From Sabellastarte sp. h YS-2021 (Eukaryota; Annelida; Polychaeta; Sabellida; Sabellidae): 64,000 nucleotides of DNA. The translations under genes and the position numbers were made by a program. The notes beneath the pieces were generated by a model that was given only the letters and a program-made list of their open reading frames with translations, was not told the origin of the DNA and made no database searches. Every line of letters begins with the position of its first letter. Within the stretch, counting starts at the first letter, position 1. Positions 2,666-64,000 of the stretch are shown piece after piece. Where the stretch lies: assembly GCA_964017235.1 (NCBI GenBank), contig OZ024927.1, positions 27,857,160 to 27,921,159 of the forward strand. The letters are read 5' to 3'.

Positions 2666-3514
2666 ATTTTCATAAAATGAAAGACATTATTGATGTTAAA
2701 ACAGAATTGCTGGACAGTCAGTTTCCAATCAATTATCCAGTGCTCAACCGAAACTAGTAAGGATAATTATGTAAAATTTCTCTACTTCCATACATGAATA
2801 CTTTCCAGAAACATTGTTACAATTTAATATTCTAGAAAGACCTCTGACATTCTTTTATCAACCACACTGAAAAGGTAGATGCAATATGAACACTGGTAGA
2901 TGCAATATGAACATAATTAATTCACTGCTACTGACAAAAGGCAAGAAACTGCATTTGGAATAATTTTGTAAAGGGCAATGGCACAACACACAATGGAGAC
3001 ACAAACATCAAACTAGAGGATCGCTCGCAAAAAAAAAAGATAATGTTTTTGCATAGCAAAAACAAAGCGTCCCGAAAAGGAAAAAAGGTGAGTGCTAAAG
3101 TATTAAGAAAATGCTTCGTTTCTAGCCTTATACTGTTGTGGCAACCAAAGTCAGCACAGTCTGCTCTATCTAGCACGGTTTTCAAGATATAAGCATTTTT
3201 GTGTTTTGCAAAAAATTAAAAAATTAAAAATGTCCGCTATATTTGGCGAGACAAAAATATTTTGAAAATTGGCATGGCTACTCTGCAGAGATACCCAGCA
3301 GGTCCAAAATTTTCTTGAGTTCGCTCCATATAGCACGGTTTTCGAGATATTAGCATTTTTGTGTTTTGCAAAAACTTTGAAAATTCAAAATGGCCACCAT
3401 TTTTGGGGAGACAAAAATTTTTTATCAAGACCACTGCCGTGGTGTGTATCTCCCGCCGAGCATTAAAGCAAAATAGCTTTTCCGAGATATTCACAATTTT
3501 TCATTTTCATGTGT

Positions 3515-6045
3515 GAAAGGTCTTCCAAAAGTAGGTGAATGAGTTATTTGAGAAAAATTGGCTATCTGCAATACTATTAAGAGATAATTCACATTTACTG
3601 ATTTTGAGTAGGTGAATAATTATCTATGGGTCTGAAACTTCACCAAGTGAAAGCTCTCCCAAAAGTAGGTGAATGAGTTATTTGAGAAAAATTGGCTATC
3701 TGCAATACTTTTAGAGATAATTCGCATTTACTCATTTTGAGTAGGTGAGTAATTAGCTACGGGTCTGAAACTTCACCATGTGAAAGCTCTCCCACAAGTA
3801 GATGAATGAGTATTTGATAAAAATTGGGTATCCGCAATACTTTTACAGATAATTAGCATTTACTCATTTTGAGTAGGTGAATAAATAGCCATGGGTCTGA
3901 AACTTCACCAAGTGAAAGCTCTGCCAAAAGTAGGTGAATGAGTTATTTGAGAAAAATTGGCTATCTGCAATACTTTTAGAGATAATTCAACATATTTTAC
4001 AAAACTCCTTTAAATTGAATAGTTTTGCTGTTAAAGTGAAAGCTCTCCCAAAAGTAGGTGAATGAGTTATTTGAGAAAAATTGGCTATCTGCAATACTTT
4101 TAGAGATAATTCACATTTACTCATTTTCAGTAGGTGAATAATTAGCTATGGGTCTGAAACTTCACCAAGTGAAAGCTCTCCCAAAAGTAGGTGAATGAGT
4201 TATTTGAGAAAAATTGGCTATCTGCAATACTTTTAGAGATAATTCGCATTTACTCATTTTGAGTAGGTGAGTAATTAGCTATGGGTCTGAAACTTCACCA
4301 AGTGAAAGCTCTCCCAAAAGTAGGTGAATGAGTTATTTGAGAAAAATTGGCTATCTGCAATACTTTTAGAGATAATTCACATTTACTCATTTTGAGTAGG
4401 TGAGTAATTAGCTATGGGTCTGAAACTTCACCAAGTGAAAGCTCTCCCAAAAGTAGGTGAATGATTAATTTGACAAAAATTGGCTATCTGCAATACTTTT
4501 AGAGATAATTCGCATTTACTCATTTTGAGTAGGTGAGTAATTAGCTATGGGTCTGAAACTTCAGCAAGTGAAAGCTCTCCCAAAAGTAGGTGAATGAGTT
4601 ATTTGAGAAAAATTGGCTATCTGCAATACTTTTAGAGATAATTCGCATTTACTCATTTTGAGTAGGTGAGTAATTAGCTATGGGTCTGAAACTTCACCAA
4701 GTGAAAGCTCTCCCAAAAGTAGGTGAATGAGTTATTTGAGAAAAATTGGCTATCTGCAATACTTTTAGAGATAATTCGCATTTACTCATTTTGAGTAGGT
4801 GAGTAATTAGCTATGGGTCTGAAACTTCACCATGTGAAAGCTCTCCCACAAGTAGATAAATGAGTTATTTGATAAAAATTGGGTATCCGCAATACTTTTA
4901 CAGATAATTAGCATTTACTCATTTTGAGTAGGTAAGTAATTAGCTATGGGTCTGAAACTTCACCATGTGAAAGCTCTTCCAAAAGTAGGTGAATGAGTTA
5001 TTTGAGAAAAATTGGCTATCTGCAATACTTTTAAGAGATAATTCGCATTTACTCATTTTGAGTAGGTGAGTAATCATCTACGGGTCTGAAACTTCACCAT
5101 ATGAAAGCTCTCCCAAAAGTACATGAATGAGTTATTTGATAAAAATTGGGTATCCGCAATAGTTTTTGAGATAATTAGCATTTACTCATTTTGAGTAGGT
5201 GAGTAATTAGCTACGGGTCTGAAACTTCACCAAGTGAAAGCTCTCCCAAAAGTAGGTGAATGAGTTATTTGAGAAAAATTGGCTATCTGCAATACTTTTA
5301 GAGATAATTCGCATTTACTCATTTTGAGTAGGTGAGTAATTAGCTATGGGTCTGAAACTTCACCAAGTGAAAGCTCTCCCAAAAGTAGGTGAATGAGTTA
5401 TTTGAGAAAAATTGGCTATCTGCAATACTTTTAGAGATAATTCACATTTACTCATTTTCAGTAGGTGAATAATTAGCTATGGGTCTGAAACTTCACCAAG
5501 TGAAAGCTCTCCCAAAAGTAGGTGAATGAGTTATTTGAGAAAAATTGGCTATCTGCAATACTTTTAGAGATAATTCGCATTTACTCATTTTGAGTAGGTG
5601 AGTAATTAGCTATGGGTCTGAAACTTCACCATGTGAAAGCTCTCCCACAAGTAGGTGAATGAGTTATTTGATAAAAATTGGGTATCCGCAATACTTTTAC
5701 AGATAATTAGCATTTACTCATTTTGAGTAGGTAAATAATTAGCTATGGGTCTGAAACTTCACCATGTGAAAGCTCTCCCAAAAGTAGATGAATGAGTTAT
5801 TTGAGAAAAATTGGCTATCTGCAATACTTTTAGAGATAATTCACATTTACTCATTTTGAGTAGGTGAGTAATTGGCTATGGGTCTGAAACTTCACCATGT
5901 GAAAGCTCTAACAAAAGTAGGTGAATGAGTTATTTGAGAAAAATTGGCCATCTGCAATACTTTTAGAGGTAATTCGCATTTACTCTTTTTGAGTAGGTGA
6001 GCAATTAGCTATGGGTCTGAAACTTCACCAAGTGAAAGCTCTTTG
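3515..6045. repeat. 133-bp satellite array 1, about 19 units
   Basis: The unit reads approximately gtgaatgagttatttgagaa, attggctatctgcaatactt, ttactcattttgagtaggtg, agctatgggtctgaaacttc, then gtgaaagctctcccaaaag. Successive gaaagctctc words sit at 4171, 4304 and 4437, giving a 133-bp period. Most units differ by a few bases. One unit near 3990-4040 carries a foreign piece resembling the ~160-bp relatives (acaaaactcctttaaattga). Confidence 0.93.
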
Positions 6046-6510
6046 GGATAGCTGCTCTGCAGATAGCTGCTCTGCAGAGATACCCTGAAGATAAAAAATT
6101 TCGTCGAAATCGCTCTATGTAACACGGTTTTCGAAATATTAGCATTTTTGTGTTTTGCAATTTTTGCGCAAAAATTCGAAAATTCAAAATGGCCGCCATT
6201 TTTGGCAAGACAAAATTTTTTTGAAAATTAGCATGGCTACTCTGCAGAGATACCCTGTGGGTCAAAAATTTCGTCGAAATCACTCTATCTAGCACGGTTT
6301 TCGAGATATAAGCATTTTTGTGTTTTGCAATTTTTGCGAAAATTTCGAAAATTCAAAATGGCCGCCATTTTGGGCAAGACAAAAATTTTTTGAAAATTGG
6401 GAAAACTACTCCGCAGAGATACCCTGCGGGTCAAAAATTTTGTCGAAATCGCTCTATCTAGCACAGTTTTCGAGATATAAGCATTTTTGTGTTTTCCTTA
6501 TTTGGAAAAT
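6045..6510. repeat. 169-bp satellite units, about 3 copies
   Basis: The unit contains aaaatggccgccatttttgg, tggctactctgcagagatac, cctgtgggtcaaaaatttcg and tctagcacggttttcgagat. The gcaatttttgcg word recurs at 6157 and 6326, a 169-bp step. It lies within family A copy 1. Confidence 0.88.
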
Positions 6511-6886
6511 TCGTAATGATTAATTAATCATTAATTACTCGGCCATTTCTTGACCAATCAATGCCAAAATCTAATGATTTCCAGATTTTAATAGAATGAA
6601 TGTATTTGCCAAGTTTCAGGTGAATTGATAAAATTCCTTTCAAGTTATCATCCGGACAAGCTACCCCATCGAAAAAAGACATTTTTGGTCATGTGACCTC
6701 TCTGATTGGTTGAAATGTCACTGCAGCATATTCAAAAAAATTCCCCAAGGCTACTGCCTAAACCTGCCAAATTTGAAAAGAATCCGCCTAACGGTTACAG
6801 AGTTATAAGGAAAACAAAATGCGGAGCCGGCGGAGCCAGCGGAGCCGCCGGAGCCGGCGGAGCCAGATGCTCTCCCATACACAAAC

Positions 6887-6908
6887 AAGCGTCCCGCAAG
6901 GGACGCTT
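6887..6908. other. Terminal palindrome of family A copy 1
   Basis: A perfect 9-bp stem, aagcgtccc / gggacgctt, with a gcaa loop. It closes the element, and the next bases (aataag) are flanking DNA. The same structure with a ttgc loop closes copy 2 at 59157-59178. Confidence 0.85.
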
Positions 6909-7394
6909 AATAAGATTATAAGCCAATTTTTTTGCACATACAGTATTCCTCATACCTACAGAACATAAAACTGTACTGTCATGGGAACCTTCATCACTGT
7001 ACATTCTGAATCATAGGCACACAAGTGGCTTTTACCTTTGCTGAAATGCAAAACTTTGACAGAACAAATTAAGTCAAAAGTTAATTATTCCCGAATCAAA
7101 CTGTAAGCTTCTATGAAACTGTCTTTTGTAACAAAGTTGTGATGGGATTCTTTTCATTATATATCAAAGAAACACACCACCAAAGACACCATAAAAATAT
7201 ACTGTAATATTCTGAACCACCAGCCAAGTTCAAATCAACATCTGTATCAAATTGATGCCCAATTACAAATTTAAAGACTCCTTTCATTTTTCAACAATAG
7301 AGCCACTCTAAGTTTTTAAAATACTTAAAAACCCTGCAAAATCTTTTGGGAGTAAATTATACTGAAAATTAATTTAAATATGAACAAATATATG

Positions 7395-7585
7395 TTGGGG
7401 TTTACAGTTGCTTTCAACATGTGGAGGCAAGATCATGATTGATAGTTGAGGGAATGTATGAAAACATCAAATATCAGCTGGGCAAGAGTCAGCATTTTAA
7501 ACTACCATATTTCCCACAGAATGTTGGGCCCAGGCACATATCCATAACCTTAGAGACAGGAGGCAATGTTGTCACCCATTACAAC
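7395..7585 (-). mobile_element. Diverged SINE tail-like segment
   Basis: The order ggggtttacagttgctttca, then catgattgatagttgagg, parallels the tail of the better SINE at 10712-10951 (ggggttttacgtcgctttca, catgacgggtagttgga). The tRNA-like half is too eroded to recognise. Treated as an old copy of the same family. Confidence 0.4.
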
Positions 7586-10500
7586 ATTGTTCTTCACTCT
7601 AGCTCTACTATCAGTTGCATTGAGAAGTAGAACCTGAGAAGTGAAATTCTCCTTGGACAAAATAGAAAGTTTGAAAGAAATTCAGTATTCCCCTTATGTA
7701 GATGGCAGTAGCAATACTTACTGTATAAATATTTACAAAAGAATATAGTTCCTTTAGAATGAAATCAAACGGAAGACAAATGGGGCAATTAAACATATAA
7801 ATTACAGAAGATATGCGTGTGTTCCTATTATAAGGTCAAACAAGAAGGCACTAAGAAGATTATTTTGTAATCCATGGCAGGTAGATTTTGGTCAGCAGGT
7901 AATCCATTCTTACCTAGAAAATTCATACAGGAGATATTTTAGTGTAAAAGTGTAGGAAAAAGTGACAGTTGGAGAATAATCTTTATTTGTGCAAAATACA
8001 GTGCAAGCATTACTTATTTTCAAACACCAATATTAAAAAGGTATATTTTTTATCAGAAATTGTTACCTTAGTTCAAGAACTATTCAGCGGTCAATCTGCT
8101 GACTGACCTCACCACATGAATGACTCTGAAGTGAAACATTACGTTCTTATGAATAATGACCAGTTGAAAATAAACTAAGACATGGAAGCTCAAGTTATCA
8201 CCTGTTAAAAAGTCCATTTTTTGTTATAAACAGAGTAAAATACACAAAACAAAAATATACAATAGCCAAACCCGGCAGCCAAGAACCCCAGCTCAGAGGT
8301 ACAACTAAATGGGCAACATTGAGATTTGGAAAAATCTAAGGAAACAACTTAAGTTGCAAGAAGTATACAGAACCAACGAGATGTTGTCAGATTAAGAACT
8401 TTGATGTAGCTGAAGAAGGGGGAAACTATAAGATATAAGAGATATATGGCCTTTTTAGTGTGATGACCCCACCTGACCTTGAAGAGGGGGTCAAAGGTCA
8501 AACTTGACACTTGCAAAAGATTCGCCGGGCATGATTTCTCAGTAATTGTTTTCTCATTCAGAATCCCTAGGACTACCGATAAAGGAGATATTAGGCCTTT
8601 TTTTTGATATGACGACACCCCCCCCCCCCCTCGCCCCCCTATTTGACATTAAAGATTTGATATGGTGGCCACTTTCTTTTCCACATAAGGTAAAAATTAC
8701 TCTCAGGCCAGCTTTCCTAGCCATATACATTTTGTGCAAATCTAATAAAGCTAGCTGCAATATTTTAAGCTTAAGAACATATTAATCAGTGATTTTCAAA
8801 TGTGTGATTTTAAATGTGTCTTATGTGTCATTTAAATACACTGGAGACAGGGTTATACGTGTATGAAAGAATTCGATTTTTGATGGGCAGACTCAACTTT
8901 TGCCCCTACAATTTTATAATTGAGTTTGTTTTAAATCTTTGTGATTAAACACTAGAAATACTAAACTGGTCGTTTGATCTAGTTTAAATTCCCCAAATTC
9001 TTTGCATGTGTCTTGTTAGCTGACACAATGGAAGATGCACATACTATTAGATGATTCTAATTTGGTCTAGGCAATACAGCAACTTGTTTTTATCTTTTGA
9101 TTTGTCCAGGTGCTCCTATTTCAGGGAATCTACCTGGCTTGTACATACTACTCTTACCAGTTCTGGACACATATTGCATGTAGATAAAGTTTCAATAAAT
9201 AATGTATATTTTAAACTAGCACACACACAGAGCAGTGTTGTATGTATTATGGACAGAAATAAAACTGGTGGACAAGGCTGGAAACCCTGGTGCTTGTACA
9301 GATTTGAATGATCTAACCCAACTAAAAAACGACAAGGTGTTTTTGGACAAGGTGTTAATTTGAATCAGATGCTGATTTGAACCATGATGACTTTTTAGCT
9401 CCTCAAATTTCACTCATTAGAAAGGTATGCACTGAATCAGCAGGAATACTCACAGAAACACTAACTACACAATAACACACAATCAGTACTTCTAATAGTT
9501 TGTGTGAAATATAAAATTAGAAGAATAATTAAATGCTCATAGCACTACAGTAAACTCTTAACACGACACAGTGTGTATGCTATATAAATCATTGATGATT
9601 CTGAGATTCCATGTACATCTTTCAAAAATATAACCTCTGCAACATGAATGAATGTATACACACACAACTAGTATAATATCAACATGGTTCACATTCTTCT
9701 TCTGTTTCTTCAGAAAAAAATATCAAGTTTCTGCACACAAAACATAGGGCTGTAATAACTGCTTGAGTACACGGTAAGGAATACAGCCATTAATAATTTG
9801 AAGTATCAAATTGGTTGAAGCATACTCGTTTTTTTTTACATCAGCAGTTTTGCATATATTTACGAAGAAGTCGCCTAAAATTTCTCAATGTTTATGTGAC
9901 AGTAACACTAATATTTTGCCTGTTAAAAGCCAGGAAAAAGAATCGTCTTGTGAGAAGAGTAACGACAAGCAAGTACCATTCGTTTCAGCAAATATACGGA
10001 CTTAGTGGGTGAACATGTTGTTAATGCTGATGTTCACTGGGCACTGGTGTTTTCTTGAAATGTGAACTTTACTCCACCACCTTAACTTTCACCAATATTT
10101 ATCTGGCTCGAAAATCTATAAATTTAACTTGTTTGAATATATTAAAATAAGCAAACATATTTCAGTTAATTAATGAAAATATCATTCATTTTGTTTGAAT
10201 CACTGTGGTTTAATTTTCCTTTTTTAATATGACACTTTGAATACAGACAAAACCATAGCATAGGAAAACTGCACTCTACACCTTTTTTCTTCAATTTTAA
10301 TTGTATTTTACATTTAAAAAGATAACACATTGTGTTTCTTATCTGTAAATTGTACAATTCCTTGATGTACTGAACTTATATTCATAAGGTCAGCCAAATT
10401 CAGCAGAACTTATTTGTAACATAATAAAACCCCACACGTTACCATCACTTCTACAACATTTCTAACACTACAATCTATGCATTATACAGCATTCCCTTGA

Positions 10501-10711
10501 GTTAAAACGTAACAATGACAACAGTGATTCCACCAACTTCAACACCAGCAACATGGCAAGCTGACATTTTTCAAATAAAGGTTTACAAAATATAAATAAG
10601 TAAATAAGTTTTATTTCCAATAAAGAAACACATTTGGTATTTGACTTAATGTGACTTTACCAGTCCTTCAGTATCTTAAATTTCCACTTGCTATGCTTGG
10701 TTCTAAACTTG

Positions 10712-10951
10712 AAAGTATTTTATTTATTTGGGGTTTTACGTCGCTTTCAACACTGTACAGGTCATATCATGACGGGTAGTTGGAAGGGCAGAGGAAACCA
10801 GTACATACAGTTCGCTAGGGTTCTGTACTGTAAACTGCCGACCAACGGCAAGCAACTACTAGCTTTCCCACTTAAGGCCATGATGGGAATCAAACCCCGG
10901 CCTCAGAGGTGGGAGGCGAGAGTGTTACCACTCTGCCACCGTGGCCCCTTA
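10712..10951 (-). mobile_element. tRNA-derived SINE (mollusc-type)
   Basis: Read on the minus strand, it begins ggggccacggtggcagagtg and contains an A-box (tggcagagtgg, 10930-10940) and a B-box (ggtttgattcc, 10886-10896, one base from the canonical ggttcgattcc). A non-tRNA body follows, then a tail with gacgtaaaaccccaaataaa. An 8-bp direct repeat, taaacttg, flanks it at 10704-10711 and 10952-10959, consistent with a target-site duplication. The layout fits the V-SINE-type RUDI family described in molluscs, but I cannot confirm the family name. The open reading frame across it is spurious. Confidence 0.8.
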
Positions 10952-12540
10952 AACTTGGTAGTAAGATGTATAAAATATTAATATACATACATACATACAT
11001 CATCAAAGTAGTTTTTTTATATACAAACAGTTCCAAGATATTGATACATTCATAATGAAAGAGTGAATGGTTAGCAATGTCTTCAATAATTCAGTGAATC
11101 TACAATTGTTATATGGCCAATACTTTGCCTGATATGTCTACATGTATTTGTATGACATCTGAAAACATTTAATAAGCAATCTGTTCTGACCCATTATCTT
11201 TCTTTTTGTATTTCAATACTCCATCCCTAACAAATAGACTACCAATGGAAATGCATATAAATCAGTATACTTCTTCCTGACAAAAAGACAAAAGTTCATT
11301 TGTGGTGTTTCTTGCCTTTAGGGTTAACTGCAATGACAAAGTTATTGAGCGAATATTCAATTTTTGAGGTCATTTTCACTATCACAAAATTACAGCTTTT
11401 TTATTACTGCTTTATATCAAACTGCCTCTTATTACACTTTGCAAACCTTCTATAAAATATCAGGGAAGAGGACACAGTCAAAACTAAGTGTACCTTAGGA
11501 CACACAACTGGAGTGATTCTGTACTTAGATCTATTGGTAGCAGAAAATGGAGTAATTAAATCTGTACCTGCACTTACTATGGTGACCTTGTAAAGAAAAT
11601 CTAATATCTATTGATGTTCATCAATAAAGAATGAGGTTAAATCAACCGACTCTGCACTGGCACACACTCACCCATACAGTAAGGGCATTGACAGGAAAAC
11701 AATCCAATAAACAGTAACATGTCAGAAACTGCTGATCAGGGTCAAATAAAACCAGTGTTTGACACTAAGAAGTAATGTATGCTGGACCAATGGGCCAGTA
11801 ACTCTTGATATCTACTGGTCCTTTAGATTTTGTGGTGGTCATTAATTATGAAAAATAAAAGCACACTATTTTATTCAATGTCTCAAGTGAAAGTGTTGAA
11901 TACAATCTACTGGCAAAAGGGGCCAGTAACTTTTAAACTCTCCAAGTCCTTAGAAAATTCTACTGGCCACAGACCAGGGGGACAGCATTACAGTCAAACA
12001 CTGCCTAAAACTGTAGACACCATGAATAGAAACATTCTTAAAAAGGCTATTGTTACACAGTCTGACATATGAAAATAACTTTGTAATAATTTCTATACAA
12101 TGGTATTCTTAACATCAAATTGATTTCTTTGTAAAACCTGCTCAGTAAAGATAATTACTGATTAGGCCCGAAACAGCTTTAACAGTAGTGTTCGTGTGTA
12201 GGGGTGGGTTTGTGTGTGTAATAATTACTGAATGGATTCTACTTCAAAAAACAAACAAAAACAAAAAACCCAGCACTTCCTGAGAATTGAGGTGGTGTAC
12301 CCTTTACTATTATGTGTATTGGCTCTTTAGTGGTATTCAAACTGGAATGGAAGATTGTATGTAACTTCTCAAACTGATCACACTGTGCAGGCAATATGAA
12401 CAGAAAACTGGATTCTGCTTTTATAAACACATTTCTTTGCCAGAAATATACAACCAATAAAGCACTACAATAAGAAACGCCTGTTACATCTTTGGTAATA
12501 TTACAAGCAATGTAATTCAACGGACACACATTTTTACCCA

Positions 12541-12573
12541 GGTGGGGTAGGGTAGGGTGGGGGTGGGGGGTGA
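12541..12573 (+). repeat. G-rich tract, possible quadruplex
   Basis: Runs of ggtggggtagggtagggtgg and following gggggtggggggtg give at least four closely spaced G-runs of three or more. No gene is near enough to assign a role. Confidence 0.45.
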
Positions 12574-14295
12574 TTGGGTAGGGTTGCCATGAGCAGTACA
12601 TTTTATACTTAAGTACTCTATGGCCAATACTCTACTCTTTCCTAAGTACTCGTTTTCAATGATGACAAAAACTAAAATTGACCAGTTTACTGAAAAAAAT
12701 TTCTGTAAATTTAATTTCCATTTGTTATCGCTTCTACAGTGAAATTAGACTACAAACCATGGCAGGTGTTTTACAGCACTAAATTATTGTTAAAATGTGA
12801 TACAATCATGAAAAATGCTGCAATATTCATGTTATATCTGAACTGACAGAACTTGATCTACAATATACAATGTCACATGTTAATTTGTTCAATTCACAAA
12901 TTTAACTCAGCTTTAAACTCATTATGGAAAATTTATAGCAGATATAATATTTACTTTAAGAAACGAGGCTACTATGCATATTAATTGGCTCTTCATAACT
13001 TTCCCATCTTATACCAATCTCATTTTTCCATCTCCATCCGATTACCCAACACTCGCCACTCCATTCTCCTACGGTCAGGGAAACATGGTTGTCAAATAGT
13101 TGCATGCTTTATTTAAGACACCTTAAATTTTTCCTGTGCAGGGATTAACTATTGAAAAAAACTGGTTAAATTATACAACTTATATAGGTATATAATTTGG
13201 CTTAAACACCAATTAACTATGACTTAATATTGCCATTATAATCCTTCTCGCTTATGCTGGAAAATTGATATTCATGTTGTCAACTTGTCACTGACCATTT
13301 TTGAGACATAAACTTAGTCCCAGAGTGCAGAGTTCTACAACTATGCCAGCTATGTGCCAACTGTAACTTGACACTGTAACCAGATTATTGTTTAGTCTGA
13401 AATGATACCTTAATGTTAAACAGAATCAAAATACAAACTCAAGTAATCATGTACGATTTAGTCTATTTTCAACAACTTAATTGTTGAGAAAGTTGCCATG
13501 GAAAGAAGTGTTTTCTCAATAGAGTTCACCCGTTAACTTGTTCCTATATCAACAAAAGGGGAACAAAGAGGAACTTAATATCCCACCTCAGGGTAGGACT
13601 CAGGTGCAGAAAAAATTCTTACCACAGGGGAATGAAGGCACCTGTATGCTCGACTCTTACGAGGACACATATTTATAGAACTGAAATATAGGCATTCACT
13701 AAATGCATGAATAAAGCGGTTTTCAATCATATGGTACATATTTTCATAAGCCGATGATAATAGATTTATTTGAAAACAGTTTTCATGTCAACATGGTATG
13801 GTAATTTGCAGCAGTTTTATTAGTTTTTTTTACTTTCTGAACACAAAATGCACAAGGCAAAAGCACTGGTTAGCAGTCAGACAGTTCATGACCATTACTT
13901 TAGTTCACCTATAGACTATATCTACATACCTGAAGTGTATTTGACAGAATATAAGAGACAACTGATCCTACCCAATGGTCAGTAATCCTGTGTGAATACT
14001 GATGTAAATGTGTGGAGCAGTTTCACTGAATTTACATGTGAAGCTATATAGACATATTATACCCAGAGCCAGAAATGTACTGAATCCTAAACTTTCACTT
14101 AACCTGAGGGAAAATACCCAACTGTCTGACACAATCTGTAAATTTCAAAGTTTTTCTCTTTCCCCAGATTTTAGCTTGAGAACAAAACTAGAGGAATGCT
14201 TTTGCTAACAAAAGCGAAGCGTCCCTTAAAGTTTAAAATGCTTTGTGGTTTTAATAAGCATGCTGTAAAGCTAAGAATGCACAAAGCTGCACCGT

Positions 14296-15400
14296 ATGCT
14301 TTCCCAATACCTCTTAATACATTCTGAAGCTATAAAAGCAACAATAAAGGAGATATAAGGCAAAAACTCCAAAGCAGCTATTTATGACCCCAGTTTGGCC
14401 CATAAGGGAGGGTCAGGGGGTAAAACTGACCGGCTATTTAGACTCTCCACATATGCTTTCCCAATACCTCTTAATACATTCTGAAGGTCTAAAAGCAACA
14501 ATAAAGGAGATATAAGTCAAAACTCCAAAGCAACTATTTTATGACCCCAGTTTGACCCATAAAGGGGGGTCGGGGATAAAACTGACCGGCTATTTAGATT
14601 CTCCACATATGCTTTCCCAATACCTCTTAATACATTCTGAAGCTATAAAAGCAACTATAAAGCAGATATAAGGCAAAAACTCCAAAGTAGCTATTTATGA
14701 CCCCAGTTTGGCCCATAAGGGGGGTGTAAAACTGACCGGCTATTTAGACTCTCCACATATTCTTTCTCAATACCTCATAATACATTCTGAAGCTATAAAA
14801 GCAACAATAAAGGAGATATAAGGCAAAAACTCCACAGCAGCTATTTATGACCCCAGTTTGGCCCGTAAGGGGGGGTCGGGGGGTAAAACTGACCGGCTAT
14901 TTAGACTCTCCACATATGCTTTCCCAATACCTCTTAATATATTCTGAAGCTATAAAAGCAACAATAAAGGAGATAAAGGCAAAAACTCAAAATCGGCTAT
15001 TTTATGACCCAAGTTTGACCCATAAGGAGGGGTTGGGGGGTAAAACTGACCGGCTATTTAGACTCTCCATATATGCTTTCCCAATACCTCTTAATACATT
15101 CTGAAGCTATAAAAGCAACAATAAAGGAGATATAAGGCAAAAACTCAAAATCAGCTATTTTATGACCCCAGTTTGACCCATAAGGGGGGGTCGGGGGGTA
15201 AAACTGACCAGCTATTTAGACTCTCCATATATGCTTTCCCAATACCTCTTAATACATTCTGAAGCTATAAAAGCAACAATAAAGGAGATATAAGGCAAAA
15301 ACTCAAAATCAGCTATTTTATGACCCCAGTTTGACCCATAAGGGGGGGCCGTGGGGTAAAACTGACCGGCTATTTAGACTCTCCACATATGGTTTCCTAT
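14296..15400. repeat. 157-bp tandem repeat, about 7 units
   Basis: Each unit runs atgctttcccaatacctctt, tacattctgaagctataaaa, aataaaggagatataaggca, tatgaccccagtttggccca, a G-run, then actgaccggctatttagact. Unit starts fall near 14296, 14451, 14606, 14757, 14912, 15070, 15229 and 15386. It is the core of the family B element. Confidence 0.9.
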
Positions 15401-15629
15401 TACCTCCCAGTACATTTTATAGCTCTAAATGCAATACTTAAGAAGATAATAGGGGGGTTGGCCTAAATTTAAGGCTTTCAGATTGGAAGGTGTCAGAAAA
15501 TCACTCATAAATGAGACATTTTTCAAGGGATTGCTCCCAAAATCTACTCAGCTCGCGTTTTCGATAGTACGAACAGGTGGGTCAAATTATAAGGCTCTGT
15601 AGCAAGTAGTTTTTTCCTGAACTGTGATG

Positions 15630-15650
15630 ACCGGGGGGGGGGGGGGGGTG
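15630..15650 (+). repeat. Poly-G tract
   Basis: An uninterrupted G run of about 18 bases inside the tail of the family B element. Length is likely to vary between individuals and to be unreliable in assembly. Confidence 0.8.
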
Positions 15651-15840
15651 TACTTTGATCATGTGACCTTCATAAAGGTCAAATTTAAGCATGCAGAAAA
15701 ATTTTCCCATGCCTAAGGTATATAACTGCCAAATATGGTTTGAAACCTTCTAATAATAAGGGAGATATTCAAGGGAGACCATAATGCGGCGGCGCGGAAA
15801 CTGAGGCGAAAACAAATAAGTGCCCTTTCAGGGACGCTTA

Positions 15841-31364: not shown

Positions 31365-31540
31365 TTAATACCTTACCTACCAGACGATAGCTATAGCCCG
31401 GCGCCAGCCGGTCCCGCCAAACGAAAGAAAAGACGTCCTGGGTTTCACCCCCGGCAGGACCGGTACACTACACTCCACTCGCCAGGTGGCCTAGTTCCTG
31501 CTTCACTCGCCAGAGGGACGTGACGTCATAGCATCTTTTT
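31365..31540. repeat. DIRS copy 3 left inverted terminal repeat
   Basis: ttacctaccagacgatagct through gtgacgtcatagcatctttt is the reverse complement of 37335-37500. No mismatch is visible over about 165 bases. Confidence 0.92.
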
Positions 31541-37334: not shown

Positions 37335-37511
37335 AAAGATGCTATGACGTCACGTCCCTCTGGCGAGTGAAGCAGGAACTAGGCCACCTGGCGAGTGGAG
37401 TGTAGTGTACCGGTCCTGCCGGGGGTGAAACCCAGGACGTCTTTTCTTTCGTTTGGCGGGACCGGCTGGCGCCGGGCTATAGCTATCGTCTGGTAGGTAA
37501 GATGTATTAAC
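37335..37511. repeat. DIRS copy 3 right inverted terminal repeat
   Basis: Inverse of 31365-31540. The outermost gatgtattaacgcaatgaaa matches the ends of copy 2 and of the fragment at 2095-2295 (cgcaataaaa). Confidence 0.92.
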
Positions 37512-47900: not shown

Positions 47901-48450
47901 ATACTTTCAGAGATAATTCGCATTTACTCATTTTGAGTAGGTGAATAATTTAGCTACGGGTCTGAAACTTCACCAAGTGAAAGCTCTCCCAAAAGTAGGT
48001 GAATGAGTTATTTGAGAAAAACTGGCTATCTGCAATACTTCTAGAGATAATTCGCATTTACTCATTTTGAGTAGGTGAGTAATTAGCTATGGGTGTAAAA
48101 CTTCACAATGTGAAAGCTCTTCAAAAGTAGGTGAATGAGTTATTTGAGAAAAATTGGCTATCTGCAATACTTTTACAGATAATTCGCGTTTACTCATTTT
48201 CAGTAGGTGAGTAATTAGCTACGGGTCTGAAACTTCACCATGTGAAAGCTCTTCCAAAAGTAGATGAATGAGTTATATGAGAAAAATTGGCTATCTGCAA
48301 TACTTTCAGAGATAATTCGCATTTACTCATTTTGAGTAGGTGAATAATTTAGCTACGGGTCTGAAACTTCACCAAGTGAAAGCTCTCCCAAAAGTAGGTG
48401 AATGAGTTATTTGAGAAAAATTGGCTATCTGCAATACTTCTAGAGATAAG
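44930..48450. repeat. 133-bp satellite array 2, about 26 units, with higher-order repeat
   Basis: The same 133-bp unit as array 1. Distinctive unit variants (ttgataaaaattgggtgtcc, gacttatttcagaaaaattg, aatgtgttatttgaggaaaa, gagttatatgagaaaaattg) recur in the same order 1,598 bp apart, about twelve units. The span 45023-46620 is repeated at 46621-48218 with only a handful of differences. The last three units are then repeated again. Confidence 0.92.
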
Positions 48451-48639
48451 CCGCCTGCCAAATATGAAAGAAATGGGGAAAGAAATGTGGACTGTAGGTT
48501 GCCAACAAGTAATATTCCACAATTTAGACATTTTTGTCTACTACAGGCCTAATTTAGACATAAACCCTACAATAGGTAAAGTGCTATTACTTACTCAAAA
48601 GTAGGCCAAAGTTCACCAAACCTTTTTCCCCTTAGCATA

Positions 48640-54740: not shown

Positions 54741-55660
54741 GATAACTAGATGAATAACATCTCCAAAAAGATTTGCCTAACTTTAATACTTTTGAAGACA
54801 TCTGACATTTACTTCTGTCATTATTTTGGTACAAATAACAAAATAGCTATTACTCACTTATGGCATGCAATAGAACTCCAAACTTATAATATGCCATCTT
54901 ACAGCTGAGGACAAAGTAGCTGAACAACATATTTTAGGAAAATACTCCAACTGCAAGAGTTTCAGAGTTATAAAGGCTTTACTCAACAGTCAGAATTTCA
55001 AAGTAGCTATTACTCAGCTACACAAGGTGGAACAGGTCTGAAACTTTACTATGTGATAGCTTACCAAAGAGTAAATGGATAACATATTTGAAAACATTTC
55101 CCTAACTTTAATACTTTTGAAGATATTTACTTCTTTCATTATTTTGCTACAGATAAGAAAATAGCTATTACTCACTTATGGCATGCAATAGAACTCCCAA
55201 CTATGTACCATCTTATAGCTAAGGACAAACTGCAATACTTTTGGAGTTATGGGTCCCTTACTCAAAGTAGCTAAAATTGCTATTACTCACTTATCTTTAG
55301 GCCTAAGTCCACAAAACCCAAAAATTTTCAAGGGCGTGAAAATTCATTAGGACAATCAATTGACAAATAATCTGTAGCAGTTTTGGAGAAATCTGTGTGA
55401 CACACTAACACACACATACAGGATGCATTTATAATCTCCTGGGCTTTAGCCCGGCGGAAGAAACATATAACTGAAAAAAAAAAAACAAGCATTCTGACGC
55501 ATGCATTTATCTCCCGCCATATAAATTAGATGTACTAAAGATAACATATTTTAACAAGGTGCTCTAAATGTAATACTTTTCAAGTTATAATTGATTTAGT
55601 GCATGATTTCATGAATTTTAATCCATTAAAAATTATTTAAAAAATTCATTAAAAAAATTT
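54740..55660. repeat. Diverged relatives of the 321-bp unit and palindromic ends
   Basis: 54760-55300 holds about two units like those at 60420-62270 (aaatagctattactcactta, tggcatgcaatagaactcca). 55350-55455 ends with atctcctgggctttagcccggcgg. 55500 has a further atctcccgcc scrap. Confidence 0.7.
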
Positions 55661-56438
55661 AGCATGTGAAAGCTCTCCAAAATGTAGGTTAATGAGTTAT
55701 TTGAGAAATATTGGCTATCTGCAATACTTTTAGTGATAATTAGGGATGGGTCGGTAGTTCCGGTATCTCGGTATCGAGAGCATTTTACTGAAATACCGTG
55801 ATGAAATTTTACAACCGCCACTTCGCTTGTTAGCACATATAATGGAAGGAAGAGTTAAAATATTAGAAACATACTCAAAATCTGAAGAAATTATAAGCTT
55901 TCCTCCCCAATTTTCATGCATTTGTAGACTTTATACAGTACTATCGATTACGTTGAGCAGAACTGCCATGTTTAGGTTATGACAATTTATAACCTCAGTT
56001 TCGCTTGTCAGCTTATATAACTGAAGGAAAACTTAAAATATTGGGAACAAACAAGAAATCTGAAGAAATTATAAACTTTTATCTCGTATTTCACACATTT
56101 GATCACTTTTATTGTGATGTCGTGAAGAGGAAACATCCATGTTTGTTTGGGGTTTACTAAAACGCGGAATCCCGGAATCGGTACGGTTTTGCATTGGTGA
56201 CCTCCCGATGTACATATTTTTCATACCGACCCATCCCTAGTGATAATAGGCAGTTACTCATTTTGAGTAGGTGAATAATTAGCTATGGGTCTGAAACTTC
56301 ACCAAGTGAAAGCTCTTCCAAAAGTAGGTGAATGAGTTATTTAAGAAAAATTGGATATCCCCAATACTTTTAGGGATAATTCACATTAGCTATGGGTCTG
56401 AAAATTCACCAATTGAAAGCTCTCCAAAATGTATGTGA
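55660..56438. repeat. 133-bp satellite units interrupted by a hAT-like element
   Basis: A unit beginning gtgaaagctctccaaaatgt is broken at 55740 and resumes at 56240. Two further units follow to 56438, where the family A copy 2 insertion begins. The array resumes at 59180. Confidence 0.85.
55741..56239. mobile_element. Non-autonomous hAT-like DNA transposon (499 bp)
   Basis: 16-bp terminal inverted repeats: tagggatgggtcggta at 55741-55756 and taccgacccatcccta at 56224-56239. Perfect 8-bp target duplication gtgataat at 55733-55740 and 56240-56247. An 8-bp duplication and a YAGGG-type terminus are the marks of the hAT superfamily. No transposase is encoded. Inside is a partial duplication (taatggaaggaagagttaaa / aactgaaggaaaacttaaaa). 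Confidence 0.92.
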
Positions 56439-57084
56439 ACTAGAGGATCGCTCGCAAAAAAAAAAGATAATGTTTTTGCATAGCAAAAACAAAGCGTCCC
56501 GAAAAGGATATAAAGGTGAGTGCTAAAGTATTAAGAAAATGCTTCGTTTCTAGCCTTATACTGTTGTGGCAACCAAAGTCAGCGCAGTCTGCTCTATCTA
56601 GCACGGTTTTCAAGATATAAGCATTTTTGTGTTTTGCAAAAAAATAAAAAAATGTCCGCTATATTTGGCGAGACAAAAATATTTTGAAAATTGGCATGGC
56701 TACTCTGCAGAGATACCCAGCAGGTCCAAAATTTTGTTGAGTTCACTCCATATAGCACGGTTTTCGAGATATAAGCATTTTTGTGTTTTGCAAAAACTTT
56801 GAAAATTCAAAATGGCCACCATTTTTGGGGAGACAATAATTTTTGTCAAGACCACTGCCGTGGTGTGTATTTCCCGCCGAGCATTAAAGCAGAAGAAATA
56901 GCTTTTCCGAGATATTCACAATTTTTCATTTTCGTGTGTGAAAGGTCTTCCAAAAGTAGGTGAATGAGTTATTTGAGAAAAATTGGCTATCTGCAATACT
57001 TTTTGAGATGATTCACATTTACTCATTTTCAGTAAGCGAGTAATTAGCTACAGGTCTGGAACTTCACCATGTGTTTTTTGTGTT

Positions 57085-58770
57085 TTGCAATTTTTGCGCA
57101 AAAATTCGAAAATTCAAAATGGCCGCCATTTTTGGCAAGACAAAATTTTTTTGAAAATTGGCATGGCTACTCTGCAGATACCCTGTGGGTCAAAAATTTC
57201 GTCGAAATCGCTCTATCTAGCACGGTTTTCGAGATATAAGCATTTTTGTGTTTTGCAATTTTGCGAAAAATTCGAAAATTCAAAATGGCCGCCATTTTTT
57301 GCGAGAAATTTTTTGTTTGAAAATTGGCATGGCTACTCTGCAGAGATACCCTGTGGGTCAAAAATTTCGTCGAAATCGCTCTATCTAGCAGGGTTTTTGA
57401 GATATAAGCATTTTTATGTTTTGCAATTTTTGCGAAAAATTCGAAAATTCAAAATGGCCGCCATTTTTGGCGAGACAAAATTTTTTTGAAAATTGGCATG
57501 GCTACTCTGCAGATATACCCTGTGGGTCAAAAATTTCGTCGAAATTGCTCTATCTAGCAGGGTTTTCGAGATATAAGCATTTTTATGTTTTGCAATTTTT
57601 GCGAAAAATTCGAAAATTCAAAATGGCCGCCATTTTTGGCGAGAAAATTTTTTTTTCAAAATTGCTATAACTACTCTGCAGAGATACCCTGCGGGTCAAA
57701 AATTTCGTCGAAATCGCTCTATCTAGCACGGTTTTCGAGATATAAGCATTTTTGTGTTTTGCAATTTTTGCGAAAATTTCGAAAATTCAAAATGGCCGCC
57801 ATTTTTGGCGAGACAAAAATTTTTTGAATATTGGGAAAAGTACTCCGCAGAGATATCCTGCGGGTCAAAAATTTTGTTGAAATTGCTCTATCTAGCACGG
57901 TTTTCGAGATATAAGCATTTTTATGTTTTGCAATTTTTGCGAAAAATTCGAAAATTCAAAATGGCCGCCATTTTGGGCGAGACAAAAGTTTTTTGAAAAC
58001 TGGGAAAATTACTCCGCAGAGATACCCTGTGGGTCAAAAATTTCGTCGAAATCGCTCTATCTAGCAGGGTTTTCGAGATATAAGCATTTTTATGTTTTGC
58101 AATTTTTGCGAAAAATTCGAAAATTCAAAATGGCCGCCATTTTTGGCGAGAAATTTTTTTTTTCAAAATTGCGATAACTACTCTGCAGAGATACCCTGCG
58201 GGTCAAAAATTTCGTCGAAATCGCTCTATCTAGCACGGTTTTCGAGATATAAGCATTTTTGTGTTTTGCAATTTTTGCGAAAATTTCGAAAATTCAAAAT
58301 GGCCGCCATTTTTGGCGAGACAAAAATTTTTTGAAAATTGGGAAAAGTACTCCGCAGAGATATCCTGTGGGTCAAAAATTTTGTCGAAATTGCTCTATCT
58401 AGCACGGTTTTTGAGATATAAGCATTTTTGTGTTTTGCAATTTTTGCGAAAATTTCGAAAATTCAAAATGGCCGCCATTTTGGGCGAGACAAAAATTTTT
58501 TGAAAATTGGGAAAAGTACTCCGCAGAGATATCCTGCGGGTCAAAAATTTTGTCGAAATTGCTCTATCTAGCACGGTTTTTGAGATATAAGCATTTTTGT
58601 GTTTTGCAATTTTTGCGAAAATTTCGAAAATTCAAAATGGCCGCCATTTTGGGCGAGACAAAAATTTTTTGAAAACTGAGAAAACTACTCCGCAGAGATA
58701 CCCTGCGGGTCAAAAATTTCGTCGAAATCGCTCTATCTAGCACGGTTTTCGAGATATAAGCATTTTTGTG
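57085..58770. repeat. 169-bp satellite array, about 10 units
   Basis: Start words at 57416, 57585, 57754, 57923, 58092, 58261 and 58430 are exactly 169 bp apart. Each unit has aaaatggccgccatttttgg and tctagcacggttttcgagat. Each gives an 80-residue open frame; since 169 is not a multiple of three, successive units fall in different frames and the frames overlap. Not a gene. Confidence 0.95.
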
Positions 58771-59100
58771 TTTTCCTTATTTGGAAAATTCGTAATGATT
58801 AATTAATCATTAATTACTCAGCCATTTCTTGACCAATCAATGCCAAAATCTAATGATTTCCAGATTTTAATAGAATGAATGTATTTGCCAAGTTTCAGGT
58901 GAATTGATCAAATTCCTTTCAAGTTATCATCCGGACAAGCTTCCCCATCGAAAAAAGACATTTTTGGTCATGTGACCTCTCTGATTGGTTGAAATGTCAC
59001 TGCAGCATATTCAAAAAAATTCCCCAAGGCTACTGCCTAAACCTGCCAAATTTGAAAAGAATCCGCCTAACGGTTACAGAGTTATAAGGAAAACAAAATG

Positions 59101-59137
59101 CGGAGCCGGCGGAGCCGCCGGAGCCGGCGGAGCCAGA
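59101..59137. repeat. gcggagcc minisatellite in the family A tail
   Basis: Repeats of cggagccggcggagccgccg just before the terminal palindrome. Copy 1 carries a longer version at 6821-6863, so the motif varies in length between copies. Confidence 0.8.
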
Positions 59138-59179
59138 AGCTCTCCCATACACAAACAAGCGTCCCTTGCGGGACGCTTA

Positions 59180-60260
59180 ATGAGTTATTTCAGTAATACT
59201 GGCTATCTGCAATACTTGTAGAGATAATTCGCATTTACTCATTTTGAGTAGGTGAATAATTAACTACGGGTGTGAAACTTCACCAAGTGAAAGCTCTCCC
59301 AAAAGTAGGTGAATGAGTTATTTGAGAAAAATTGGCTATCTGCAATACTTTTACAGATAATTCACATTTACTCATTTTGATTAGGTGAGTAATTAGCTAC
59401 AGGTCTGGAACTTCACCATGTGAAAGCTCTCCCAAAAGTAGATGAACGAGTAATTTGATAAAAATTGGATACCCGCAATACTTTTAGAGATAATTAGCAT
59501 TTACTCATTTTGAGGAGGTGAATAATTAGCTACGGCTCTGAAAATTCACCAAGTGAAAGCTCTCCCAGAAGTAGGTGAATGAGTTATTTGATAAAAATTG
59601 GCTATCTGCAATACTTTTACAGATAATTCACATTTACTCATTTTCAGTAGGTGAGTAATTAGCTACGGGTCTGAAACTTTACCATGTGAAAGCCCTCCCA
59701 AAAGTAGATGAATGAGTTATTTGAGAAAAATTGGCTATCTGCAATACTTTTTGAGATGATTCACATTTACTCATTTTCAGTAAGCGAGTAATTAGCTACA
59801 GGTCTGGAACTTCACCATGTGAAAGCCCTCTCAAAAGTAGATGAGTTATTTGAGAAAAATTGGATATCTGCAATACTTTTACAGATAATTCACATTTACT
59901 CATTTTGAGTAGGTGAGTAATTAGCTACGGGTCTGGAACTTCACCATGTGAAAGCTCTCCCAAAAGTAGATGAACGAGTAATTTGATAAAAATTGGATAT
60001 CCACAATACTTTTAGAGATAATTCGCATTTACTCATTTTGAGTAGATGAATAATTAGCTACAGGTCTGAAACTTCACCAAGTGAAAGCTCTTCCAAAAGT
60101 AGGTGAATGAGTTATTTGATAAAAATTGGATATCCGCAATACTTTTAGAGATAATTATCATTTACTCATTTTGAGTAGGTGAATAATTAGCTACGGGTCT
60201 GAAACTTCACCATGTGAAATCTCTCCCAAAAGTAGATGAAGCAGTTATTTGAGAAAAATT
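59180..60260. repeat. 133-bp satellite array 3, about 8 units
   Basis: Continues the array broken at 56438. Units show gtgaatgagttatttgagaa, tatctgcaatacttttacag, cattttgagtaggtgagtaa and ctacgggtctggaacttcac, somewhat more diverged than array 2. Confidence 0.88.
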
Positions 60261-60269
60261 ATGTCATTA

Positions 60270-62275
60270 TTTTGCCACAAATAAGAAAATAGCTATTACT
60301 CACTTATGGCATGCAATAGAACCCCAAACTATATGCATTTACCCTGCAATCACAATTTCAAAGTAGGTATTACTCGGCTATCCAATGTGCAACAGGTCTG
60401 AAACTTTACTATGTGACAGGTTATCAAAAACTAGATGAATAACATATTTGAAAATATTTCCCAAACTTTAATACTTTTGAAGATATTTGACATTTACTTA
60501 TGTTGTTATTTTGCTACAAATAAGAAAATAGCTATTACTCACTTATGGCATGCAATACAACCCCAAAATATATACCATCTTATAGTTAAGGACAAAGTAG
60601 CTGAACAACATATTTGAAGAAAAAGCTGTAACTGCAATAGTTTTGGAGTTACAATGGATTTACTCAACAGTCACAATTTCAAAGTAGTTATTACTTAGCT
60701 ATGCAATGTGCAACAGGTCTGAAACTTTACTATGTGATAGCTTACAAAAAAGTAGATGAATGACATATTTGAAAAAAATTCCGTAACTTTAATACTTCTG
60801 AAGATATTTGACATTTACTTATGTCATTATTTTGCTACTAATAAGAAAAAAGCTATTACTCACTTATGGCATACAATAGAACCCCAAACTACATGCCAGC
60901 TTATAGCTAAGGACAAAGTAGCTGAACAACATATTTGAAGAAAAAGCTGTAACTGCAATAGTTTCGGAGTTACAATGGATTTACTCAACAGTCACAATTT
61001 CAAAGTAGCTATTACTTAGCTATGCAATGTGCAACAGGTCTGAAACTTTACTATGTGATAGCTTACAAAAAAGTAGATGAATGACATATTTGAAAAGAAT
61101 TCCGTAACTTTAATACTTCTGAAGATATTTGACATTTACTTATGTCATTATTTTGCTACTAATAAGAAAAAAGCTATTACTCACTTATGGCATGCAATAG
61201 AACCCCAAACTACATGCCAGCTTATAGCTAAGGACAAAGTAGGTGAACAACATATTTTACGAAAATATTGTAACTGCAATAGTTTTGGAGTTACAATGGA
61301 TTTACTCAACTGTAGAATTTCAAAGTAGCTATTACTTAGCTATCCAATGTGCAACAGATCCGAAACTTTACTATGTGATAGCTTATGAAAAAGTAGATGG
61401 ATAACATATTTGAAAAGAATTCCCTAACTTTAATACTTTTGAAGATATTTGACATCTACTTATGTCATGATTTGGCTACAAATAACAAAATAGCTATTAC
61501 TAACTTATGGCATGCAATAGAACCCCAAACTATGTACCATCTTATAGCTAAGGACAAAGTAGCTGAACAACATATTTTAGGAAAATACTCTAACTGCAAT
61601 AGTTTTGGAGTTACAATGGCTTTACTCAACAGTCAGAATTTCAAAGTAGCTATAACTCAGCTATCCAAGGTGCAACAGGTCTGAAACTTTACTATGTTAT
61701 AGCTTACCAAAAAGTAGATGGACAACATATTTGAAAAGATTTCCCTAACTTTAATACTTTTGAAGATATTTGACATTTACTTCTTCTGTTATTTAGCTAC
61801 AAATGAGGAAATAGCTATTACTCACTTATGGCAAGCAATAGAACCCCAAACTATGTACCATCTTATAGCTAAGGACAAAGTAGCTGAACAACATATTTTT
61901 GGAAAATACTCTAACTGCAATAGTTTTGGAGTTACAATCGCTTTACTCACCAGTCAGAATTTCAAAGTAGCTATTACTCAGCTATCCAAGGTGCAACAGG
62001 TCTGAAACTTTAGTATGTGACAGCTTACCAAAAAGAAGATGGACAACATATTTGAAAAGATTTCCCTAACTTCAATACTTTTGAAGATATTTGACATTTA
62101 CTTCTTCTGTTATTTAGCTACAAATGAGAAAATAGCTATTACTCACTTATGGCATGCAATGGGACCCCAAACTATGTACCATCTTATAGCTAAGGACAAA
62201 GTAGCTGAACAACATATTTGAAGAAAAACTTGTTACTGCAATAGTTTTGAGTTATGAGCCCTTTACTCAAAGTAG
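60270..62275. repeat. 321-bp satellite array, about 6 units
   Basis: Unit: gataacatatttgaaaagat, aactttaatacttttgaaga, aaatagctattactcactta, ggcatgcaatagaaccccaa, aaagtagctgaacaacatat, gcaatagttttggagttaca, tttactcaacagtcagaatt. Start words recur at 60756, 61077, 61397, 61718 and 62039. Each unit is itself two diverged ~160-bp halves. The frame recurs because 321 is divisible by three, giving parallel 60-95 residue open frames that are not credible proteins. Confidence 0.93.
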
Positions 62276-62640
62276 CTAAGATTGCTATTACTCACTTATC
62301 TTTAGGCCTAAGTCAATAAAACCAAAAAAATTTTCAAGGGCATGAAAATTCATTGGGACAATTAATTTACAAAAAATCTGTAGCTGTAGCAGTTTTGGAG
62401 AAATCTGCATGACTAACTAACGCACGCACGCACGCACTCACAGACATCATTTCATAATCTCCCTCCCGGGCTAAAGCCCGGCGGGAGATAAAAAACAAAT
62501 AAAATATAATACAAACAATTTTGTTTTGATATGATAAGGGCTCAATTCATTGGGACAATTAATTTACAAAAAATCTGTAGCTGTAGCAGTTTTGGAGAAA
62601 TCTGCATGACTAACTAACGCACGCACGCACGCAAGCTGTC
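62275..62640. repeat. Palindromic end (ctcccgggctaaagcccggcgggag) and a 90-bp duplication
   Basis: The array ends with ataatctccctcccgggcta and aagcccggcgggagataaaa at 62454-62492. The block cattgggacaattaatttac, then gactaactaacgcacgcacg, is present at about 62350-62436 and again at 62550-62632, apparently exactly. The cgcacgca microsatellite lies in both. Confidence 0.75.
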
Positions 62641-63164: not shown

Positions 63165-64000
63165 ACTAGAGGATCGCTCGCAAAAAAAAAAGATAATGTT
63201 TTTGCATAGCAAAAACAAAGCGTCCCGAAAAGGATATAAAGGTGAGTGCTAAAGTATTAAGAAAATGCTTCGTTTCTAGCCTTATACTGTTGTGGCAACC
63301 AAAGTCAGCGCAGTCTGCTCTATCTAGCACGGTTTTCAAGATATAAGCATTTTTGTGTTTTGCAAAAAATAAAAAAATTTAAAATGTCCGCTATATTTGG
63401 CGAGACAAAAATATTTTGAAAATTGGCATGGCTACTCTGCAGAGATACCCAGCAGGTCCAAAATTTTGTTGAGTTCACTCCATATAGCACGGTTTTCGAG
63501 ATATAAGCATTTTTGTGTTTTGCAAAAACTTTGAAAATTCAAAATGGCCACCATTTTTGGGGAGACAAAAATTTTTGTCAAGACCACTGCCGTGGTATGT
63601 ATCTCCCGCCGAGCATTAAAGCAGAAGAAATAGCTTTTCCGAGATATTCACAATTTTTCATTTTCGTGTGTGAAAGGTCTTCCAAAAGTAGGTGAATGAG
63701 TTATTTGAGAAAAATTGGCTATCTGCAATACTATTAAGAGATAATTCACATTTACTCATTTTGAGTAGGTGAATAATTATCTATGGGTCTGAAACTTCAC
63801 CAAGTGAAAGCTCTCCCAAAAGTAGGTGAAGTTATTTGAGAAAAATTGGCTATCTGCAATACTTTTAGAGATAATTCGCATTTACTCATTTTGAGTAGGT
63901 GAGTAATTAGCTATGGGTCTGAAACTTCACCATGTGAAAGCTCTCCCACAAGTAGATGAATGAGTATTTGAGAAAAATTGGGTATCCGCAATACTTTTAC
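63165..64000 (+). mobile_element. Helentron-like element, family A, copy 3 (runs off the window)
   Basis: Left end actagaggatcgctcgc, the tttttgcatagcaaaaa hairpin, subterminal aagcgtccc, diverged 169-bp units, the accactgccgtggt palindrome, then 133-bp units to the window edge. The left arm is nearly the same as copy 2. Its right end lies beyond 64000. Confidence 0.75.

Follow-up and report, generated by a model that had tools for sequence, protein, structure and literature searches.

How do repeats with one kind of end come to hold different satellites? This question is raised by a 64,000-nt stretch of the Sabellastarte sp. h YS-2021 genome (contig OZ024927.1, positions 27,857,160 to 27,921,159; hereafter, the window), in which two families of satellite-carrying repeats, A and B, combine similar ends with dissimilar cores. 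An earlier note on this sequence proposed that the termini mobilize, swap and expand satellite arrays. The ends indeed define mobile elements that disperse satellites, and unit numbers vary among copies; ongoing swapping of cores, the other part of the proposal, was not supported. We find that A and B are HINEs, that is, non-autonomous Helentrons, on the minus strand of the window, and that the second satellite of A was very probably gained by nested insertion of an element of another family, H, into an element similar to D, a relative of A.

Read on the minus strand, both families start with a 5' end (TTAAGCGTCCC...) that forms a palindrome, perfect in A and imperfect in B. Next come a tail, which includes a GC-rich run that varies, and one or two arrays; the subterminal inverted repeat (subTIR) GGGACGCTT and a hairpin then lead to the tip CCTCTAG. 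The terminal palindrome of the earlier note is the 5' subterminal repeat, and its left arm is the 3' end (subTIR, hairpin and CCTCTAG); the features lie where the note placed them, with the orientation corrected. Family A copy 1 (3013..6908, AA flank on both sides) comprises, in window order, the 3' end (3013..3073: tip CTAGAGG, hairpin GTTTTTGC-ATA-GCAAAAAC at 3045-3063, subTIR at 3065-3073), diverged 169-bp units (3160..3425, 83% identity to the 169-bp unit), the block described below, an array of 19.1 133-bp satellite units (3513..6042), about 2.5 units of the 169-bp array, which resumes at TTGGGATAGCT (6047..6495), and the 5' region (6500..6908), where a tail with CATGTGACC, CTGCCAAAT and the GC-rich run leads to the terminal palindrome (6887-6908, loop GCAA). 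Copy 2 (56440..59178; palindrome at 59157-59178, loop TTGC) sits in a 133-bp satellite array, with flanks that align to the 133-bp unit, and has the 133-bp unit once and the 169-bp unit about ten times, compared to 19.1 and 2.5 times in copy 1, the difference in unit number that had been reported. Copy 3 (63166..64000) is cut by the window end. Family B (14188..15839) consists of a 3' end (14188..14225: tip, hairpin GCTTTTG-CTAA-CAAAAGC at 14198-14215, subTIR at 14217-14225), 7.4 units of a 157-bp satellite (14295..15448) and a 5' region (15449..15839) with an imperfect terminal palindrome (15818-15839). The sequence between A copy 1 and B (6909-14187) belongs to neither family. The tip AACTAGAGG is found at 3011, 14186, 56438 and 63164, AAGCGTCCC at 3065 (A) and 14217 (B), CATGTGACC at 6690, 15660 and 58969, and CTGCCAAAT at 6764, 15726 and 59043, and also at 48455.

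The anatomy of a HINE, as given in the available part of PMC4067079, includes a 5' subTIR at the terminus, a 3' subTIR located 38-60 bp from the end, a hairpin, and at least two Ts at each end. In A and B, the subTIR AAGCGTCCC is present at both ends of the element, the 5' one right at the terminus, and a hairpin lies between the 3' subTIR and the tip, with a stem of 8-9 bp in A (fold z -2.95) and of 7 bp in B (z -1.93, weaker). In A, the 3' subTIR is 52 bp from the tip, within the published range. The A palindrome folds better than shuffled sequences (z -5.31), and the imperfect B palindrome does not (z 0.31). No coding capacity, as expected of HINEs, is apparent: the longest open reading frames (ORFs; listed from at least 70 aa) reach 96 aa in A and 85 aa in B. 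Two features fit this assignment poorly, namely, the B subTIR, which is 29 bp from the 3' tip, outside the range of 38-60 bp, and the length of the subTIR itself, 9 bp, below the published length. The 3' tip CTAG by itself would fit the CTRR of canonical Helitrons, but these elements start with TC and insert between A and T, whereas A and B start with AAGCGTCCC and are inserted at AA/TT.

The insertion context fits this anatomy as well. In the sample of flanks, AA adjoins all 34 3' tips and all 44 5' tips; the patterns behind most of these places force the first A and leave the second one free, the frequency of AA across the window is 0.11, and the sample includes two loci, L041 and L042, that come from one insertion. 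The host bases beside the 5' ends read AATNA, with T at position 3 in 36 of the 44 flanks and A at position 5 in 42, a target preference sharper than TT alone. Nested insertion sites are seen in the 133-bp unit. The elements are abundant across the 1.786 Gb genome (647 contigs) that includes the window: the 3'-end pattern ACTAGAGG N5-60 AAGCGTCCC has 9,887 matches (5,084 forward, 4,803 reverse; none for the reversed control), the tail pattern CTGCCAAAT N60-150 GGGACGCTTA has 10,186 (control 0), and the 5' palindrome pattern has 11,411 (control 0), a count that includes a further type, E, which accounts for 14 of the first 100 matches listed. Among the first 100 3' ends listed, 84 are type A, 14 type B and 2 type D, all types being assigned by eye. 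A and B would presumably be copied in trans by a Rep-helicase-endonuclease enzyme via a rolling-circle, single-strand route, with insertion at TT.

A probable origin of the second satellite of A is suggested by the block between the diverged 169-bp units and the 133-bp array. At 3426..3508 (minus strand), A copy 1 contains the fossil 3' end of a Helentron of family H, with the tip CAAG at 3426-3429, the hairpin ACCACTGCCGTGGT at 3430-3443 and the subTIR ATCTCCCGCCG at 3448-3458. From CAAG to the array start, this block is 82% identical (E 6e-20) to an H 3' end outside A, locus L059, which was retrieved with a pattern that forces CAAG and the subTIR, so that only the bases between and after these are independent, and 89% identical (E 6e-27) to an H 3' end in the flank of locus L045, likewise outside A and retrieved without such a pattern. 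The homology begins at CAAG, and the sequences preceding CAAG are unrelated. The H end is present in 16 of 18 A copies. On the left, it is preceded by ATTTTTGAAAA in two of these 16 (L038 and L045); this is the full run of the 169-bp unit ending in GAAAA, including the AA expected at a tip. On the right, the junction was located in 13 of the 18 copies; in these, ...CTCT at the end of the 133-bp array gives way directly to TTGGG, with which the 169-bp unit continues. The two D elements that were fetched, and on which this group rests (L037 and L095), have an A-related arm and tail and 169-type units, without the 133-bp unit.

These observations make it very probable that A arose by nesting. The ancestor of A would have resembled D, with a 169-bp array as its sole satellite, and a HINE of family H would have inserted into one of its 169-bp units at GAAAA^TTGGG; the insert would have kept its 3' end and 133-bp array and lost its 5' end, and the composite would then have spread to roughly 8,000 copies. 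Under this scenario, cores would be gained by nesting and mobilized together with their host, and arrays would lengthen or shorten in place. Several findings count against it. The H 5' end is missing in A, which is the weak point of the nesting scenario; 14 of the 16 embedded H tips have no AA before CAAG, some or all of the AAAA being lost; two A copies (L043 and L056) show no recognizable H end; neither L059 nor the L045 flank runs on into 133-bp units; and the tree of 133-bp monomers is poorly resolved and does not place the A monomers inside the H ones, with the A monomers clustering more than shuffled labels.

H sequences nevertheless adjoin 133-bp arrays outside A. Locus L061 contains an H 5' tail followed by 321-bp and 133-bp units, and the H arm of L059 recurs right before the 133-bp array at window position 44932 (85% over 52 columns, E 1e-12). 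Elsewhere, the window is filled with 321-, 155- and 166-bp units, to which the 133-bp unit is related. H 5' palindromes with a ATCTCCCGCCG-type subTIR are found at 62457-62489 and elsewhere, and a probable H-family element, the unity of which is inferred, extends over 55486..62489 (minus strand), from a 3' end CAAG...ATCTCCCGCC (55486-55518) through 133- and 321-bp cores to this palindrome; it hosts A copy 2 and an insert resembling a miniature inverted-repeat transposable element. That insert, at about 55743-56237 with inverted ends GGGATGGGTCGGTA by eye, lies inside the 133-bp array. Genome-wide, the exact H-end pattern has a single match, which proved to be an A copy, and a looser pattern has 281 matches, mostly H 5' ends by eye. 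The four looser-pattern loci that were fetched comprise the H 3' end of L059, another A copy (L058), the H 5' end of L061, and L060, which has no match to the H-end module. At the right end of L045, an A element is inserted directly beside the 3' tip of an H element, with only As between the two.

The alternatives to nesting differ in what they make of the shared ends and of the junctions. If a single enzyme demanded the same short motifs, A and B could have converged on similar ends without common ancestry; in line with this, their identity is confined to the 9-bp subTIR and the tip, and blastn alone finds a weak match between the tails (best E 0.02). Yet a local alignment of the A and B tails scores 81 over about 165 bp, compared to a maximum of 39 in 300 shuffles in two-base blocks, that of the arms scores 52 against a shuffle maximum of 35, and the D tail is 71.5% identical to the A tail over 390 columns. 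The shared ends are therefore homologous rather than a matter of chance, and convergence is highly improbable. The cores, which the note called unrelated-looking, are unrelated: the 157-bp unit of B matches none of the nine units with which it was compared (at E 0.01, neither the 133- nor the 169-bp unit), and there is no match between the 133- and 169-bp units either. Ends that are homologous around cores that are not are what one would see if recombination between elements sharing an arm exchanged their arrays, an explanation offered, in the available part of PMC7492417, for oyster elements with double arrays. The present-day copies speak against such active swapping. From the list of 100 3' ends, we took the first 80 and sought for each a 5' end on the same strand within 12 kb, the 5' ends being drawn from the first 100 listed palindromes (E omitted) and eight places with a tail only. 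One-to-one pairing joins 59 of the 80 and leaves 21 unpaired, with 51 A-A, 6 B-B, 1 D-D and 1 A-B pair, that is, ends of the same type in 58 of 59; a nearest-end rule yields 61 pairs, 60 of the same type, but uses two 5' ends twice. The exception, an A 3' end and a B 5' end 2.0 kb apart at C1:18097826, was rejected as a chimera because the locus (L038) holds a complete B element nested in the 133-bp array of an A element.

The 20 whole elements that we read, picked by type and moderate size and mapped against the window modules, tell the same story of fixed combinations. In all 15 A elements read, the A arm is followed by 133-bp units, then by 169-type units and finally by the A tail, with the block before the 133-bp array missing in L056 and shortened in L043; the four B elements read have the arm, 157-bp units and the B tail, two of them with extra inserts. 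Core swapping is not seen in present-day copies: there is one core set per end type in the 20 fetched elements, and a change of core shows up only when families D and A are compared, where it bears the signature of one element inserted into another. The earlier note had itself named a fixed pairing of ends and cores as the outcome contrary to its proposal, and this is what the 59 pairs and 20 elements display. Nor would recombination at shared arms be expected to place an H 3' end exactly within a 169-bp unit, and we consider active swapping very unlikely. A different possibility is that the 133-bp array was captured from a satellite locus as filler DNA, during repair or aberrant replication, with no insertion of H. 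Such arrays do occur outside A (window 44932-48449), and both the lack of an H 5' end in A and the 14 of 16 H tips without AA would be in keeping with capture. However, the H homology starts at a Helentron 3' tip complete with hairpin and subTIR, and in L038 and L045, GAAAA is kept before this tip and the 169-bp unit resumes at the next base, so filler DNA is improbable. The intact left junction in these two copies makes nesting slightly more favoured, and filler DNA and swapping less.

Unit numbers, in contrast to core types, do change. Loci L041 and L042 share flanking sequence (a count by eye gives 86 of 90 matching bases in one flank and 88 of 90 in the other) and therefore descend from one insertion by segmental duplication; they differ in the number of 133-bp units (8.0 and 2.0) and of 169-bp units (1.7 and 3.7). 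Thus, array length changes in place after insertion, and expansion needs no transposition. The suggestion that the termini expand the arrays is borne out to the extent that unit number varies, and not as to the need for transposition. Another duplication is apparent on C1, where four A-type 3' ends lie on one strand 7.6-7.7 kb apart (2390596, 2398327, 2405918 and 2413648), probably a tandem duplication containing an A element.

A Rep/helicase element with the same ends, which the earlier note proposed to search for, was not found in 20 downstream flanks of Rep/helicase loci. The PF14214 profile gave 24 matches, and in the 20 downstream flanks that were read (L029, L031-L036 and L082-L094) there was neither an autonomous partner with A or B ends nor the subTIR GGGACGCTT at a 3' end, although some flanks may stop short of the element end; this may count against the proposed mobilization in trans. 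Rep-helicase-endonuclease Helentrons with other ends are present in the genome. In family C, a 2,245-aa open frame encompasses the Helitron N-terminal domain and a PIF1 helicase, with an endonuclease/phosphatase domain just below the cut-off (24.0 vs 24.5 bits). The family C element (L030, L015 and L029) is bounded on one side by a GGCGGGTTG palindrome and on the opposite side by CCCTCTTG, unlike A and B; similar ends occur at window positions 2332, 42838 and 53787, as well as at L029:2952 and L030:1694. A 400-aa helicase-endonuclease query from this family has 25 full-length matches at 96-100%, itself included, and such near-identical copies suggest recent activity. In 2 of 13 flanks, an A and a B 5' end (L083 1486 and L093 154) are located less than 1.5 kb downstream of decayed Helentron endonuclease genes. 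Considered as ends of a partner, these were rejected and read as separate insertions.

The palindrome at the 5' end of A occurs with its loop in both orientations. Among 5,941 perfect copies genome-wide, the loop is TTGC in 5,264 and the reverse complement, GCAA, in 677 (11.4%). The 3' hairpin loop is found inverted, too, in 246 exact copies. In a tree of 34 tails, in which flipped copies were deliberately over-sampled and from which five rows (one D, and four with long branches or deleted tails) were excluded, the 11 flipped copies require nine changes, compared to a mean of 9.5 for shuffled labels, and a single clade of flipped tails is rejected (approximately unbiased test, p-AU 0.002). With the four excluded tails kept, 12 changes are needed for 13 flipped copies of 38. 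The tails are nearly identical and the resolution accordingly low, such that the well-supported branches alone force two loop changes with 34 tails and one with 38. This pattern resembles the flip-flop of hairpin-primed replicons; template switching at palindromes could also invert loops, without a role in transposition. Tentatively, the terminal palindrome could be a recurrently inverted hairpin, and the Helentron end might pass through a hairpin intermediate during copying, a reading to which we give a low probability. The intermediate of Helentron copying is not known to have been demonstrated directly; should the inverted loops be linked to transposition, they would be its trace in the sequence. 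If inversion does recur, in imperfect palindromes it would make the outer arm and the inner arm change places, which could give rise to new end specificities; combined with nesting, this would allow a single family of ends to evolve both new ends and new satellites. The palindrome of type E (AAGCGGCCC...GGGACGCTT; the 3' end that matches it is GGGCCGCTT...CCTAG; L096, L008 and L010:183) differs by eye from the inverted B palindrome at 3 positions and from the B palindrome itself at 6.

The principle of satellite-carrying HINEs is already known from oyster. The Cg_HINEs of Crassostrea gigas, as described in the available part of PMC7492417, are non-autonomous Helentrons with satellite cores, a TT target and consistent pairing; their 'group 2' combines related flanks with unrelated repeats, two elements have two consecutive arrays, and the autonomous elements could not be related to the Cg_HINEs either. 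Here, unlike in that account, the second array is bounded by a recognizable foreign Helentron 3' end, the palindrome loop occurs inverted, and the genome has about ten thousand matches to the 3'-end motif. How elements acquire two arrays is left open in the same part of PMC7492417, and family A provides a readable case, in which the 3' end of the incoming element still sits, with single-base precision, in the older satellite unit. The oyster Helitron/satellite loci of PMC12628747, as far as its available sections go, similarly include structures inside other elements and several array types per element, but these are single scrambled loci, whereas family A is one fixed composite that was amplified as a whole. 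HINE-Mo and DINE-1, in the portion of PMC4067079 at hand, share with A and B a 3' subTIR with a hairpin, a T-rich target, endonuclease-bearing autonomous Helentrons and, in HINE-Mo, a self-palindromic 5' subTIR; they differ in the length of the subTIR (12-15 bp vs 9 bp here), and A and B differ from them in their long satellite arrays and in that no partner was found in the 20 flanks. Two details, the fossil junction and the inversion of the loop, appear to be new: among the papers listed on satellite-carrying or nested Helentrons, Mercenaria Helitrons and loop inversion, no title or opening part of an abstract mentions the fossil 3' end of a Helentron bordering an array, or loop inversion.

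By extrapolation, family A would amount to some 36 Mb, near 2% of the genome, if every 3' end has a full element; the estimate takes 84 of the 100 listed 3' ends as type A and the median A-pair length of 4.3 kb, and 59 of the 80 ends had a 5' end in reach. In Mercenaria mercenaria, satellites (about 10%) and rolling-circle elements (4-5%) are counted as separate classes in the available part of PMC8905726. Should the extrapolation hold, satellites and rolling-circle elements that are annotated separately would partly overlap.

Elsewhere in the window, a pair of inverted repeats, CTACCAGACGATAGCTATAG..., is located at about 31370-31470 and 37430-37500 and may mark the two termini of a DNA transposon some 6 kb long.

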